A stretch of DNA of 16,039 nucleotides from Gammaproteobacteria bacterium (lineage in GTDB: Bacteria > Pseudomonadota > Gammaproteobacteria > SZUA-229): positions 1 through 16,039 of the forward strand of contig DAOWLL010000004.1 in NCBI GenBank assembly GCA_030641945.1. Reading direction: 5' to 3'. Positions 10,863-16,027 of this stretch are shown here, in pieces. The first letter of the stretch is position 1. Each line of letters starts with the position of its first letter. The notes beneath the pieces are model-generated. The model did not search any database, was not told where the DNA came from, and saw only the letters and a program-made list of their open reading frames with translations. The position numbers and the translations under genes are program-made.

Positions 10863-11041
10863 GGGACCAGGGACTAAGTACCTAGGGTGAGGAAAATCAG
10901 AAGGCTTGTCATTTAATGGTGGATTACGTGTGGTAGCTCAGACTTCATCTGATAGATTGTCATACTGATTTCGATATACCCTGACAGTTGGTAATTGGCT
11001 CAAACTACCTGTAAGCGGACATACATAGTTTTGGCCCAACT
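10863..11041 (+). other. Intergenic stretch after lpxA with no recognisable gene
   Basis: No open frame with family resemblance is visible. There is a small dyad TCAGA-CTTCA-TCTGA at 10938-10952, without a T-tract, and CCTAGG near 10881. I see no convincing intrinsic terminator for the long upstream operon. This is the point where lpxB would be expected in most Gammaproteobacteria. Confidence 0.5.
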
Positions 11042-11215
11042 TCAGAAACCGCCCCATTCCTGTAGTTGAATTTGCCTATGGCGCAGCTTATACATATCGA
11101 CTGGGAAAGCAGCATGCGCATAGAGACAGGAATGCCTCCTGGCTCCATCGGCATCGTGCTGCAGTCTACGGGTGAAGATAGAGTACACAAATTAAAGAAT
11201 AATTATGTCGCTTGA
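11042..11215 (+). pseudogene. Decayed fragment of an AraC-type regulator N-terminal domain
   Basis: The frame starting TTG 11066 encodes a peptide nearly the same as residues 48-78 of the ORF at 15108: both share the LNLP, AQL, HI, WES, MRIETG and PPGSIGIV blocks. By hand I count 81 of 93 identical bases (11066-11158 against 15249-15341) and 26 of 31 identical residues. Just upstream, the Ser-Glu pair (11042-11047) also lines up without a gap, and the TAG at 11063-11065 stands where the other copy has CAG (Gln), an in-frame nonsense change. No upstream start or ribosome site remains. The frame runs on past the homology as LQSTGEDRVHKLKN, which still looks like an AraC N-terminal domain, and stops at 11215 inside gltS. 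Confidence 0.75.
11066..11094 (+). promoter_or_regulatory. Candidate sigma-70 promoter for gltS inside the pseudogene
   Basis: TTGAAT (11066-11071), a 17-base spacer and TATACA (11089-11094) match the consensus at four of six positions in each box with ideal spacing. It would start transcription about 100 bases before gltS. The homologous place in the downstream copy reads TTAAAT and TACACA, so two substitutions improved both boxes here. Inferred only from sequence. Confidence 0.35.
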
Positions 11216-12422
11216 TTTTGGTCCAACCCAGACACTGGGGTTTGCCGTGCTGATACTCTACATCGGCATGTTTCTCATATCACGTCTGCGTTTTCTCAGC
11301 GACAATAATATCCCTGTTCCTGTTGTCGGCGGTTTCCTGTTCGCACTTATCGCCAGTCTGTTACTGGGACAGTTTGGTGTACGCTTTGGTTTTGATATGA
11401 CAATGAAAGAGCCGATGATGCTGGCTTTCTTTTCATGTGTCGGTCTCGGTGCTGATATGCGCATGTTATCTACCGGCGGTAAACAATTGCTGCTGTTTAT
11501 CGTGGCCTGCCTGCTCTACCTGATCATACAGGACGGCATCGGCCTGATGACCGCGGTAAGTTTAGACATGCATCCGCTGGTGGGCCTGTTGAGCGGTTCG
11601 ATAACACTCTCTGGCGGTCACGCAACGGGGGCGGCATACGCCCATCAATTTCATGGCAGTAGCAATATTGCCGGTGCTATGGAACTGGCGATGGCGGTCG
11701 CCACCTTTGGCCTGATCCTGGGCGGCATTATCGGCGGACCGGTGGCTGGCCGATTGATCAAAAAACATAATATACCTTTACCCCATAAAGCAGATAACGA
11801 ACATGGTGACGTACTGCAGCATGATGATAGTGAATATGCGCCTGTTGATGAAGACAGCTTCCTGCTTTCATTTTTTTATATATTACTCTGTATCATCTTC
11901 GGAAAAATAATTTCTGCCTGGTTTGCAGAAAATGTCATGACACTGCCGGATATCTTCTGGTGTATGTTTGTTGGTGTTATCATCCGCAATACAACCATCC
12001 ATGACAAACTTCCCAGTGGGCATCAGCCCAGTGTCGACTTAATCGGCAATATATCGTTGTCGCTGTTTCTGGTTATGGCACTAATGTCACTGAACCTGTG
12101 GGGCATGATAAGCATCGCCGGTCCGCTGCTTGTTTTACTGGGTACCCAGCTTGTTGGTATGGTGATATTTTCCAGTTATATCACCTGGCGCATCATGGGC
12201 CGGGACTATAATGCGGCCATAATTGCGGGTGGTCATTGTGGATTTGGTTTAGGTGCAACACCGACCGCGGTGGCCAACATGAGTGCGCTGACCAAACGTT
12301 TTGGACCTGCACCACAGGCATTTATCGTCGTGCCGTTGATGGGCGCATTCTTTATTGATCTGCTGAATGCAATCGTCATTCAGGTCTATTTAGCACTACC
12401 GATATTTGGCCTGGGTAACTGA
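11205..12422 (+). CDS. gltS: Sodium/glutamate symporter, GltS (ESS) family
   Basis: Inner membrane secondary transporter that, in the family, takes up glutamate with Na+. The 405 residues are mostly hydrophobic segments (about ten or more). Two inverted structural repeats are marked by equivalent re-entrant loops, LSGGHATGAAYAHQF in the first half and GGHCGFGLGATPTAVANM in the second. Both are near copies of the E. coli GltS motifs; NISLSLFLVMALMSLNLW and VPLMGAFFIDLLNA also match. A hydrophilic loop (about residues 195-218, rich in His, Asp and Glu) separates the halves. The ribosome site before the ATG at 11205 is weak. The TAXI lipoprotein gene begins one base after the stop, so the two are almost certainly co-translated and probably act together. 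Substrate is inferred from the family. Confidence 0.93.
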   Translation: MSLDFGPTQTLGFAVLILYIGMFLISRLRFLSDNNIPVPVVGGFLFALIASLLLGQFGVRFGFDMTMKEPMMLAFFSCVGLGADMRMLSTGGKQLLLFIVACLLYLIIQDGIGLMTAVSLDMHPLVGLLSGSITLSGGHATGAAYAHQFHGSSNIAGAMELAMAVATFGLILGGIIGGPVAGRLIKKHNIPLPHKADNEHGDVLQHDDSEYAPVDEDSFLLSFFYILLCIIFGKIISAWFAENVMTLPDIFWCMFVGVIIRNTTIHDKLPSGHQPSVDLIGNISLSLFLVMALMSLNLWGMISIAGPLLVLLGTQLVGMVIFSSYITWRIMGRDYNAAIIAGGHCGFGLGATPTAVANMSALTKRFGPAPQAFIVVPLMGAFFIDLLNAIVIQVYLALPIFGLGN

Positions 12423-12423
12423 A

Positions 12424-13968
12424 ATGCGTTATTTACAATACATTATGGTGATTGTACTGCTTGTCATATTGAGTGCCTGCAGCCGTGGCCCCGATGATGA
12501 AACGTTAAAATCAGAAATTCAACAAAGGCTGGATCAACAGTTTGCTGATAAATTATTCAAGAGTGTAAAACTGACACGTAAAGGTTCGGCGCCACGACTT
12601 GATGGCGTTGATGGTATCTATGTTTATTACAATATCGAACTCGAGTTTTTACGTGAATACAACCTGGTCTCCTGGCGCGGGCTTAATGTCGGAACCCTGG
12701 CCGCGGTCCTTGGTGCGACGACGACCGGTATCGAAGGTTTTAACAGTGGCGGTAATAAAAAAGGTGATCGCCTGTTTATCCGTGGCAGACTTGGATACCA
12801 GTTAACTGAAGATCAATGGATGGCAAACACTTTTACACCTATACAGACAGAAGAAGCAGCTGTTGTAGAAACGCTGGATACACCATCACCTGGTGCCATT
12901 ATCGAAAACATAAAGAAACTTCTTGATCACGATATTGCTGCGACCCGATCAAAAAAAGACAGGGTGACGCTTAACGAACTGCGTCGTTCGATGGCCCGTA
13001 TCGATCTGGGCCATGCAACGCTAGATCAGTATTATACTTTAGGTACAGGTTGGCCGACCGGATCATATTACAAGTTTGGCAAGGCATTTACTGAGTATGC
13101 CAATAAACATGGCTTAAAAATCTTTAATTATGCTTCCGAGGGTAGCCTTGAAAATGGCTACCGTGTTAACACCGGTCGTATCGATTTTGCCATTTTGCAG
13201 AGTGACGTTGCCGAGGTGCTGTACAAGGGCTGGATCGAAGAAGGTCAGTTGCCCTCATCCGATTTGCGTGCGATAGCGAGTCTGTGGCCGGAAGCGGTCC
13301 ATGTAATTACCCTGGAAAAAAATGGCATAAAAGATTTGTCTGATATCGAAGGCAGGCAGGTTGCGATCGGCAGCATACGATCAGGAACTCGTTTTACTGC
13401 CGCTCGTATCTGGCTGGCTGCTGGTTTTGAACGGCTGGACCAAAAAAACGTCAAGGTGCTCGGCCGTGGAAACGCCATCAAGGCATTGGAGGGTGGTGAA
13501 GTCGATGCGATTGTGATCGTGGGAGCAATCCCTGATCCAGCGATACAGGGTCTGGTGCAAAGACGTGATGATATTCGTTTTGTGCCGCTGTATCAGTCAA
13601 CGATAAGCAAGCTGGTCGAGCAAAACTTTGCCTATTATGGCTTACCGATCCCGGCAAAAACATATCCCGGTCAGAGCGAGTCAGTACTGACACTAGGCAT
13701 GACGGCACTGTTAACGACCAGTGTGCACACCTCAGATGAAGTGGTTATGCAGTATATGGAATTGATGCAACAGGGGACGGAAGAGATCGCTCAACAATTT
13801 TACCAGGCTGGTTTTATCACTTACAAAACAGCCCGGCTTGGCATCTCGATGCCATTGCATCCGGCCGCGAAGAAATACTATGAGCAGATACAGCAACAGC
13901 AACAGCAACAGCGGGAACAGGTGCCTGGTGTAGAAAAAGAGTTGGCGGGTGAGGGTGAATCTGAGTGA
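12424..13968 (+). CDS. TAXI-family solute-binding lipoprotein with N-terminal extension
   Basis: The ATG at 12424 gives 514 residues starting with a lipoprotein signal peptide (IMVIVLLVILSAC, lipobox LSAC, lipidated Cys19). The C-terminal part (about residues 203-495) is a TAXI-type substrate-binding domain, as used by TRAP transporters: LGTGWPTGSYYKFGKAF, ASEGSLENGYRVNTGRIDFA, LQSDVAEVLYKGW, GRQVAIGSIRSGTRFTA and LEGGEVDAIVIVGA, ending near LHPAAKKYYEQ. Residues 20-200 are an extension I do not recognise. The extreme C-terminus is low complexity (seven Gln, then acidic). No DctQ/DctM-type TRAP subunit is nearby; the partner appears to be GltS, whose stop is one base upstream. Some TAXI proteins bind glutamate or glutamine, which suits this pairing. 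Function is inferred. Confidence 0.85.
   Translation: MRYLQYIMVIVLLVILSACSRGPDDETLKSEIQQRLDQQFADKLFKSVKLTRKGSAPRLDGVDGIYVYYNIELEFLREYNLVSWRGLNVGTLAAVLGATTTGIEGFNSGGNKKGDRLFIRGRLGYQLTEDQWMANTFTPIQTEEAAVVETLDTPSPGAIIENIKKLLDHDIAATRSKKDRVTLNELRRSMARIDLGHATLDQYYTLGTGWPTGSYYKFGKAFTEYANKHGLKIFNYASEGSLENGYRVNTGRIDFAILQSDVAEVLYKGWIEEGQLPSSDLRAIASLWPEAVHVITLEKNGIKDLSDIEGRQVAIGSIRSGTRFTAARIWLAAGFERLDQKNVKVLGRGNAIKALEGGEVDAIVIVGAIPDPAIQGLVQRRDDIRFVPLYQSTISKLVEQNFAYYGLPIPAKTYPGQSESVLTLGMTALLTTSVHTSDEVVMQYMELMQQGTEEIAQQFYQAGFITYKTARLGISMPLHPAAKKYYEQIQQQQQQQREQVPGVEKELAGEGESE
13891..13911 (+). repeat. (CAGCAA)3CAG hexanucleotide repeat
   Basis: Three copies of CAGCAA plus CAG encode seven consecutive glutamines near the C-terminus of the TAXI lipoprotein, in a stretch that continues Arg-Glu-Gln. 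Repeat number could change by slippage without breaking the frame. Confidence 0.85.
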
Positions 13969-14246: not shown

Positions 14247-14837
14247 CTATTCACACTTCTTTGGTAACTTGTATTCTTCACGAATGCTCATGAGCTTGTC
14301 CTGAAGCTGCAGCAAACTTGTTCTTGCTTCTGTCTCACTGTTAGTGTCCCAGTCTTTTTTCACTACGCCAGGCATCAATTCTTTTGTTTTGCTGTTGTTA
14401 CCCTGGTCTGCATAACTCAGTACTTCCAGCCAGTAACCTGAGACGGCAAAGTTTGGATTAGTGGACTGTTTAGCTTTGGCTGCATCTTGCAATGCATCCT
14501 GATGATCGCAGGTCACCAGAGCGCTTAAACCTTTGAATGCATCATCACCTATCTTTGCACGAATCTTTTCAGCTTTTGCGTTTCGCTGCTCTTCAATTTT
14601 TGTATCGACTTTGCTGCCACCTATCGCGCCCGCCGTAGCTCCGACAGCACCACCATATACCGCGCCTCTTGCCGCTGCTTCAGCCGGATCACCACCAAAT
14701 ACAAGCGCGCTGACGAGACCACCGACCGCACCAGAAGCAGCACCAACAGTGGCGCCTTCACCGGCACCCTTTGCTGCATACTCGCCACAACTTGTAACTA
14801 GTAAAGCTAGACTCAAAATTATTATCGAAAACTTCAT
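14247..14837 (-). CDS. Glycine-zipper lipoprotein of unknown function
   Basis: The 196-residue product starts with a lipoprotein signal peptide (IIILSLALLVTSC, lipidated Cys17). Residues 24-74 form a glycine/alanine-rich segment of the glycine-zipper type (repeated GxxxG such as GAASGAVGG and GAVGATAGAIGG), interrupted by a short acidic piece. This kind of segment is often found in envelope lipoproteins and may insert into or span a membrane. The remainder (80-196) is a charged, mostly helical domain with two cysteines (110 and 195) that could form a disulfide in the periplasm. AGAGA about seven bases before the ATG supports the start. I do not recognise the C-terminal domain or a specific role. 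It is convergent with the TAXI gene. Confidence 0.8.
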   Translation of the reverse strand: MKFSIIILSLALLVTSCGEYAAKGAGEGATVGAASGAVGGLVSALVFGGDPAEAAARGAVYGGAVGATAGAIGGSKVDTKIEEQRNAKAEKIRAKIGDDAFKGLSALVTCDHQDALQDAAKAKQSTNPNFAVSGYWLEVLSYADQGNNSKTKELMPGVVKKDWDTNSETEARTSLLQLQDKLMSIREEYKLPKKCE

Positions 14838-15107: not shown

Positions 15108-15109
15108 AT
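15093..15109. repeat. Dyad over the ribosome site and start codon
   Basis: ATACGA-GGTTA-TCGTAT is a perfect 6-bp inverted repeat with a 5-base loop. The GAGG ribosome site spans the stem-loop edge, and the second arm runs into the ATG at 15108. It could fold in the mRNA and limit translation, or serve as a protein binding site. Confidence 0.5.
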
Positions 15110-15506
15110 GAGTCATATATTCGATTCCGGCTTGCTCTCCACAAACAGCTTCCACGACTTCGACCAGATGGCTGCCGTTGCTGCATCGGTTTGGGATCAA
15201 CGCTACCGAAAACTGGGGAAGGGATCTGAATTCGGATTCGCCCACCAGTTAAATTTGCCAACGGCGCAGCTTACACATATCGGTTGGGAAAGCGGTATGC
15301 GCATCGAAACAGGAACGCCTCCTGGCTCCATCGGCATTGTGCGTACACTACGCAACAAGGAGGTGCAGCGTATGTGGGACGTCGTCGTCACCCACGAATT
15401 CCCGATGACGGAAGCGGAAGATACCTTCAAGATTTCGGCGACGCAACTGTGCGGCAAGATCCTGCTCTACCCGCATGGTCTTCCAGACACACAAAGCGCT
15501 GACTAA
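15108..15506 (+). CDS. Possible chimeric ORF: AraC-type N-terminus joined to alcohol dehydrogenase tail
   Basis: An open 132-codon frame with a good ribosome site (GAGG, seven bases before the ATG). Residues 14-78 (FHDFDQMAAVAASVWDQRY, then LGKGSEF and GTPPGSIGIV) resemble the N-terminal ligand-binding region of a group of AraC-type regulators. Residues 92-121 (VVVTHEFPMTEAEDTFKIS, then GKILLYP) resemble the C-terminal end of zinc-type medium-chain alcohol dehydrogenases, which typically read VTHRFPLxEAxEAF...GKVxLxP. No DNA-binding helix-turn-helix and no catalytic or NAD-binding domain is present. The similarity to the fragment at 11042 stops exactly at residue 78, marking the joint. It is most likely a deletion remnant of two genes that happens to be in frame; whether it is expressed is unknown. 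Confidence 0.55.
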   Translation: MSHIFDSGLLSTNSFHDFDQMAAVAASVWDQRYRKLGKGSEFGFAHQLNLPTAQLTHIGWESGMRIETGTPPGSIGIVRTLRNKEVQRMWDVVVTHEFPMTEAEDTFKISATQLCGKILLYPHGLPDTQSAD

Positions 15507-16027
15507 TGGCTGATAACTCGCAAGCTAAGGTGCCGGCCGCGGGGTGGCAGCTCAAGCTCGGCGTTGCCTTGTTTGGTCTCAGTATTTTGTTACCCGTACT
15601 CGGGATACCGCTGGTTGCCTTAATCGGACTGTCGGCCGAGACCGTGGCCACGGTTTCCGGTGTCATGCTGGTAGCTGCAGAAGTGCTTGGTCTCGTTGCC
15701 GTCGCCGTTATGGGCAAGGACGGTTACGCTTATATCAAGAACCGCGTCTTCGGCTTCCTCAAGCAGTACGGGCCACCGGATGAGGTCAGCCGCACCCGCT
15801 ACACTATCGGCCTCGTGATGTTCGCCGTGCCTGTTGTTTTCGGCTGGCTTGCGCCGTATGTGGCCGATTGGGTTCCTCGCTACTCAGGTAACGAGATCAG
15901 CTATGGCATTGCCGGTGACCTGTTGTTGCTGGTTAGCCTGTTCGTCCTGGGTGGTGATTTTTGGGACAAACTGCGCGCACTGTTTATCCACGGGGCAAAG
16001 GCGGTGTCTCCGAAAACGTGCGGATGA
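15506..16027 (+). CDS. Small membrane protein, transporter suffix domain type
   Basis: The 173-residue product has about four hydrophobic segments (roughly residues 15-35, 45-70, 98-120 and 130-150) with a conserved-looking cytoplasmic stretch between the pairs (GKDGYAYIKNRVFGFLKQYG) and LGGDFWDKLRALF near the end. This agrees with my memory of proteins named 'transporter suffix domain-containing', which also occur as C-terminal additions to larger transporters; the biochemical role is unknown to me. The ATG shares one base with the TAA of the preceding ORF (TAATG) and has no ribosome site of its own, so it probably depends on translation of that ORF. G+C is clearly higher than in the conserved genes upstream, which suggests separate ancestry. 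Confidence 0.65.
   Translation: MADNSQAKVPAAGWQLKLGVALFGLSILLPVLGIPLVALIGLSAETVATVSGVMLVAAEVLGLVAVAVMGKDGYAYIKNRVFGFLKQYGPPDEVSRTRYTIGLVMFAVPVVFGWLAPYVADWVPRYSGNEISYGIAGDLLLLVSLFVLGGDFWDKLRALFIHGAKAVSPKTCG

Follow-up and report, generated by a model that had tools for sequence, protein, structure and literature searches.

The TAXI-GltS class of transporters was described in August 2025 from the Bordetella pertussis genes BP0402 and BP0403 (Jaques et al., Commun Biol 2025;8:1201, PMC12344293). It is the closest counterpart of the locus that we analyze here: a gltS gene and a gene for an elongated TAXI solute-binding lipoprotein, adjacent on a 16,039-nucleotide stretch of DNA (hereafter the window; contig DAOWLL010000004.1 of assembly GCA_030641945.1) from an uncultured gammaproteobacterium. 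According to the passages of that paper on which we draw throughout, BP0403 is a 503-residue tri-domain TAXI lipoprotein whose gene shares 3 bp with the end of gltS. Its solute-binding protein (SBP) domain binds L-glutamate with a Kd of 180 nM, depending on residues Y219 and Q263, and the protein dimerizes via a helical domain; a PilO-like fold of the N-terminal domain (NTD) is a feature of the class. A full-text search of open-licence papers for GltS together with TAXI returned this paper as the sole precedent.

A gltS-TAXI gene pair in the window

The pair consists of the following genes:

11205..12422, + strand: gltS, sodium/glutamate symporter (ESS family), membrane component; 405 aa, ATG to TGA; PF03616, TIGR00210
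12424..13968, + strand: elongated TAXI solute-binding lipoprotein; 514 aa; TIGR02122, PF16868

The gltS product scores 414 bits against PF03616 (cut-off 26) and 439.8 bits against the TIGR00210 gltS equivalog (cut-off 310.75), the latter over residues 7-399, that is, over its full length. The lipoprotein matches TIGR02122 (TRAP_TAXI) over residues 197-488 with 207.8 bits (cut-off 84.35) and PF16868 over residues 206-487 with 166.7 bits (cut-off 27). A single base, 12423, separates the gltS stop from the lipoprotein ATG at 12424 on the same strand. The list of open reading frames (ORFs) also offered a TTG start at 12406, overlapping gltS; we set it aside because the signal peptide begins at the ATG and because a close relative, locus L006, likewise has an ATG one base past the gltS stop. 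The first-pass annotation had described just this arrangement, a complete gltS followed after one base by a lipoprotein gene with a C-terminal TAXI domain, and had seen no DctM- or DctQ-like gene in the window. Translations, Pfam and TIGRFAM matches confirm the former, and the latter held in a Pfam scan of all 16 likely window genes, which found no match to DctM or DctQ.

The locus fits the TAXI-GltS class, as outlined in PMC12344293, on four features (adjacency, a tri-domain lipoprotein, the Tyr/Gln site and no TRAP partner found in the window or the draft genome), an assignment that rests on architecture, spacing and context. We consider it highly probable that the two genes encode a TAXI-GltS system for glutamate uptake, in which the TAXI lipoprotein would very likely bind glutamate and pass it on to the sodium-driven GltS.

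Predicted glutamate site and domains of the lipoprotein

Along the lipoprotein we distinguish:

12424..12480, + strand: signal peptide and lipobox, residues 1-19 (LSAC, Cys19), by eye from the translation
12481..12828, + strand: N-terminal alpha/beta domain (NTD), residues 20-135, from the predicted structure
12889..13023, + strand: helical domain, residues 156-200, two helices in the model (156-167 and 177-200)
13024..13893, + strand: TAXI SBP domain, residues 201-490, from TIGR02122 and Foldseek
13066..13068, + strand: Tyr215, equivalent to the VcGluP ligand Tyr Y45 by alignment and to BP0403 Y219 by spacing
13198..13200, + strand: Gln259, equivalent to the VcGluP ligand Gln Q93 by alignment and to BP0403 Q263 by spacing

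An AlphaFold2 model of the lipoprotein, built on a 90-row alignment, reached a mean predicted local distance difference test score (pLDDT) of 86.6 and a predicted template modelling score (pTM) of 0.79, with low confidence in the linker at residues 141-153. The best PDB matches of this model by Foldseek are the TAXI structures 1us4, 9ibo and 8u79, solved with glutamate (E 1.3e-24 to 1.5e-24), and a sequence search against solved structures gave a match limited to residues 194-489. For the window GltS, the sequence search found no solved relative (best E 0.54, an unrelated protein).

Tyr215 and Gln259 are invariant in all 90 aligned proteins, and lie 44 residues apart, which is also the spacing of Y219 and Q263 in BP0403. 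Could the pair nevertheless be an SBP-dependent GltS system that carries something else (glutamine, pyroglutamate, 2-oxoglutarate or a dicarboxylate, for example)? 2-Oxoglutarate and phthalate are carried by some TAXI systems (cited in PMC12344293), and, from our reading of the alignment, Y200 and M201 of VcGluP have no conserved counterpart in the window lipoprotein. However, the effects of Y200A and M201A were only 3.5- and 2.1-fold in the data we cite from PMC11574862, and the two decisive glutamate residues, kept at 78% and 54% in the TAXI alignment given there, never vary here. As the membrane partner is moreover a GltS equivalog, we regard a different substrate as distinctly improbable and retain glutamate.

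Within the 90-row alignment, conservation of the lipobox Cys19 is 90% or more. In the model, the NTD comprises a helix (25-39) and strands at 45-57, 65-75, 98-104, 116-128 and 131-134; Foldseek gave no PDB match to its fold at E <=0.001, and a second comparison gave weak rows only. Judged by the mean majority frequency per alignment column, the NTD (0.68) is conserved equally with the SBP domain (0.69), and the helical domain, which by analogy with BP0403 (PMC12344293) is likely the dimerization region, has a value of 0.56. A search with the NTD and helical domain, which covered proteins of about 100-318 aa, yielded 13 hits, and the seven that we examined included no convincing NTD without TAXI: P0178, P0180, P0181 and P0182 are N-terminal pieces that continue into a TAXI domain, P0188 is a short fragment from a contig of 802 bases, and P0189 and P0190 have unrelated, chimera-like ends. 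The six outside this examined set sit on contigs of 778-3043 bases. The conservation of the NTD and the lack of a convincing stand-alone copy among these seven suggest that it is a dedicated protein contact, plausibly with GltS.

Elongated TAXI proteins also occur in records assigned to Candidatus Cloacimonetes and Deltaproteobacteria (P0129 and P0140), so that the architecture seems to extend beyond Pseudomonadota. Close to its end the window lipoprotein has a glutamine run encoded by CAG/CAA repeats (13885-13920); no other part of the protein is less conserved than this tail when homologues are compared.

Conservation of the pair

Whether gltS and the TAXI gene stay together in related genomes was a question raised by the first-pass annotation, and the pairing proved to be conserved. 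A profile scan of genome contigs yielded 19 loci with an elongated TAXI gene, 17 of which have gltS directly upstream on the same strand. The other two (L019, L024) start at a contig edge that cuts off their upstream side, and a recurrence of this order argues that the arrangement is not due to chance. Among the 17, the contigs of L006 and L014 hold only the end of gltS, and L015, which is frame-shifted, has gltS in two frames. The first candidate TAXI start lies 0-12 bases past the gltS stop in 14 cases (L006-L014, L016-L018, L020, L022); L021, L023 and L015 show no clean start spacing, and some loci have an additional, earlier TTG.

We then have a control in conventional TAXI genes from a survey of 369 genomes of the same class, with at most four candidates scored per genome. 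TAXI alignment matches were present in 84 genomes and reached full elongated length in two, the window genome and G153. In G153, too, gltS adjoins the elongated TAXI gene, but it is no additional independent case since G153 and L011 have one and the same GltS sequence. Removing these two genomes from the 30 fetched loci left 28 conventional TAXI loci, and GltS appeared in none of their fetched flanks, which extend up to about 1.5 kb on each side, as opposed to 17 of 19 for the elongated type; only two of the 28 genomes contain any GltS at all. Conventional-size TAXI genes beside gltS, also reported in PMC12344293, are thus absent from this sample. A DctM-like frame accompanies 21 of the 28 genes, and in two more (L031, L035) DctM is placed by position.

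Does the window lipoprotein itself serve a TRAP membrane component encoded elsewhere, its adjacency to gltS being incidental? Most TAXI proteins do serve TRAP transporters (PMC12344293), and the source genome is a draft, 86% complete in 634 contigs, so a TAXI-type TRAP membrane gene may be missed. The draft contains one TAXI gene, one GltS gene and two DctM genes, and each of these two is preceded by DctP and a separate DctQ, as judged by Pfam. They do not fit the TAXI protein because, again according to PMC12344293, TAXI systems use fused TRAP membrane proteins. No unclaimed TRAP membrane gene was found in the 86% that the draft represents, which leaves no spare DctQM for the TAXI gene, a partner whose discovery would have spoken against the pairing proposed by the first-pass annotation. 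Thus we did not observe the lipoprotein as a TRAP transporter (2.A.56) component: neither DctQ nor DctM lies nearby, and neither DctM in the draft is unclaimed. Since 17 of the 19 related loci have gltS next to the TAXI gene and the other two are cut at contig edges, we give a TRAP role next to no credence and keep to GltS as the partner.

The flanks of the pair mostly differ from locus to locus. With the pair excised, a flanking frame is common to only 7 of 171 locus pairs among the 19 loci, several of which have short or absent flanks, and six of these seven fall within L012, L013, L015 and L017. The excision matters since antisense frames over the pair inflate sharing (120 of 190 locus pairs). 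Nonsynonymous (dN) divergence is well below synonymous (dS) divergence, which points to purifying selection on both genes. Between the window and L007, gltS has a dN of 0.019 and a dS of 1.08, and the TAXI gene 0.145 and 1.65, dS values above 1 being near saturation; against L006 the TAXI gene has a dN of 0.041 and a dS of 0.175, and dS against L008 is saturated. On plasmids, 328 records match, none of them over 80% of the query.

Some individual loci deserve mention. One binned genome (C4.bin.17) has two gltS-TAXI loci on separate contigs, L006 and L007, whose TAXI proteins are 90% and 76% identical to that of the window; this could reflect a duplication or a mixed bin. In P0113, a GltS piece continues into an elongated TAXI piece, which looks like a frame-shifted or deleted locus.

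A separate clade of paired GltS

The association is not symmetrical: in the class sample the elongated TAXI gene comes with gltS, and gltS mostly comes without TAXI. A Glt_symporter match was present in 37 of the 369 genomes, 34 of them over the cut-off. TAXI-like frames lie near 3 of the 30 fetched GltS loci, namely in the window, in G153 and, as an apparent relic, in G196 (L081). In this last locus, positions 1-960 carry a broken gltS and then a TAXI C-terminal remnant, as if one deletion had removed both.

In a tree of 37 GltS proteins, 16 paired and 21 without a TAXI neighbor, one branch separates all the paired proteins from the rest, with a support of 100/100 and recovery in 100% of 200 bootstrap trees. 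The window GltS falls inside this clade of TAXI-paired GltS, which includes Myxococcota, Halieaceae and other Gammaproteobacteria. Its unity is partly a selection effect, because the paired set was collected by similarity to the window TAXI; any separate origins of pairing, for instance in Bordetella or Lachnospiraceae, would lie outside the tree. Left out were loci with partial gltS (L006, L014) or none seen (L019, L024), loci from genomes shared with L026 and the window (L059, L005) and short or distant sequences (L079-L083); L015 (gltS in two frames), L070 (not recovered) and L078 (short match) were lost. The GltS proteins of L011 and L026 are identical. Warnings for long branches (L077, L076, L061, L068, L071) and odd composition all concern solo rows. 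Paired and solo rows differ at 22 GltS positions. We dropped an apparent difference in the C-terminal tail of paired GltS, as local matching had cut the alignment short and many rows escaped the motif search.

A tentative reading, to which we give somewhat less than even weight, is that the GltS beside the elongated TAXI gene is a dedicated branch of single origin that has grown dependent on its binding protein, with the NTD as a purpose-built dock. We base the docking role on three properties of the NTD: it is conserved like the ligand domain, it was not convincingly found without TAXI, and it is inherited with the GltS clade. If true, this would be a further evolutionary route, besides those of TRAP and the tripartite tricarboxylate transporters (TTT), to an SBP-dependent elevator transporter.

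How far do these data establish a transport role for the lipoprotein? Several of them weigh against it. The 27 fetched class GltS loci without a nearby TAXI-like frame mean that the lipoprotein could be an accessory and not a requirement. Both TAXI and GltS are missing in three same-family genomes that we examined, hence the system is patchy. Transport and ligand binding by the window protein are themselves inferential, and that transport requires, or is enhanced by, the lipoprotein is inferred both here and in PMC12344293. A co-expressed envelope sensor or buffer, binding glutamate without gating transport while GltS works alone as in E. coli, would agree with the many solo loci, and the authors of PMC12344293 state that TAXI-GltS functional coupling still requires experimental verification. 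The linkage of the two genes amid mostly different flanks, the separate GltS clade for pairs and the TAXI-GltS fusions in Lachnospiraceae reported in the same paper argue for the opposite. We therefore judge the sensor or buffer unlikely, although less so than the two alternatives considered above, and favor uptake by the pair.

Proposed mechanism and significance

To our knowledge, TRAP and TTT were the only secondary transporters known to depend on an SBP before the 2025 paper. The first-pass annotation had proposed that the lipoprotein feeds glutamate to GltS in an SBP-dependent transporter apart from these two classes. The functional part of this proposal agrees with the class published in PMC12344293; its novelty does not survive, as the class ceased to be unknown in August 2025. 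The present locus is a further, well-conserved member of a class already described, not a new one.

By this model, the lipid-anchored tri-domain TAXI protein would capture periplasmic L-glutamate in the cleft of its two-lobed C-terminal domain. The protein would probably dimerize via its helical hairpins and may dock on the GltS dimer with both NTD and loaded binding domain, whereupon an elevator movement of GltS would bring glutamate into the cell together with sodium.

What we add is the linkage count, the clade of paired GltS and the conservation of the NTD. Uncultured Gammaproteobacteria, Halieaceae and Myxococcota all retain the TAXI-GltS arrangement as a unit of two genes, and paired and solo GltS proteins offer natural contrasts for testing which features tie a transporter to a binding protein.

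Surroundings of the pair

From their sequence, the window genes ahead of gltS form an ordinary envelope and lipid A run. By Pfam, they are an amino acid kinase (presumably pyrH, from gene order), RRF, undecaprenyl diphosphate synthase, a cytidylyltransferase (which we take to be cdsA on the same grounds) and DXP reductoisomerase, then peptidase M50 with PDZ, Omp85 with POTRA, OmpH, LpxD, a FabA-like protein and an LpxA-like acyltransferase. Beyond the pair, a small lipoprotein-like ORF on the minus strand (14247-14837) matches a glycine zipper only weakly, at 17.6 bits against a cut-off of 27. A hydrophobic 173-aa ORF (15506-16027) has no family at E 0.01, and DUF2627 appears only below cut-off, at E up to 1.

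A small ORF at 15108-15506 has a decayed copy just upstream of gltS (10991-11164), which is interrupted by two stops; the two are 50% identical as proteins over residues 23-80, and 96 bases match at 88%. Direct repeats at 11064-11159 and 15247-15342 thus bracket the gltS-TAXI pair. No further copy of the small ORF was found in the draft genome.

Comparison with known systems

Like BP0402/BP0403, as presented in PMC12344293, the locus has gltS upstream and a lipoprotein SBP gene directly downstream, close enough for translational coupling, with no TRAP membrane gene nearby. Its lipoprotein likewise has about 500 residues, with an NTD, a helical domain and a C-terminal TAXI domain in which Tyr and Gln are 44 apart. 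It differs in its host, an uncultured gammaproteobacterium, in its 1-base gap versus a 3-bp overlap and in its 514 residues versus 503; and BP0403 is biochemically characterized, whereas the window protein is described from its sequence and a predicted structure.

With the TAXI-TRAP system VcGluP/VcGluQM (in the account of PMC11574862 used here) the lipoprotein shares the SBP domain fold and the glutamate residues, but it has no DctQM partner that we could find, carries an additional NTD and helical domain, and neighbors GltS. With solo GltS symporters (ESS, TIGR00210; 2.A.27) the window GltS shares a full-length equivalog match and presumably the same sodium-glutamate chemistry. Unlike them, it belongs to a separate clade, all of whose members in our tree adjoin an elongated TAXI gene.

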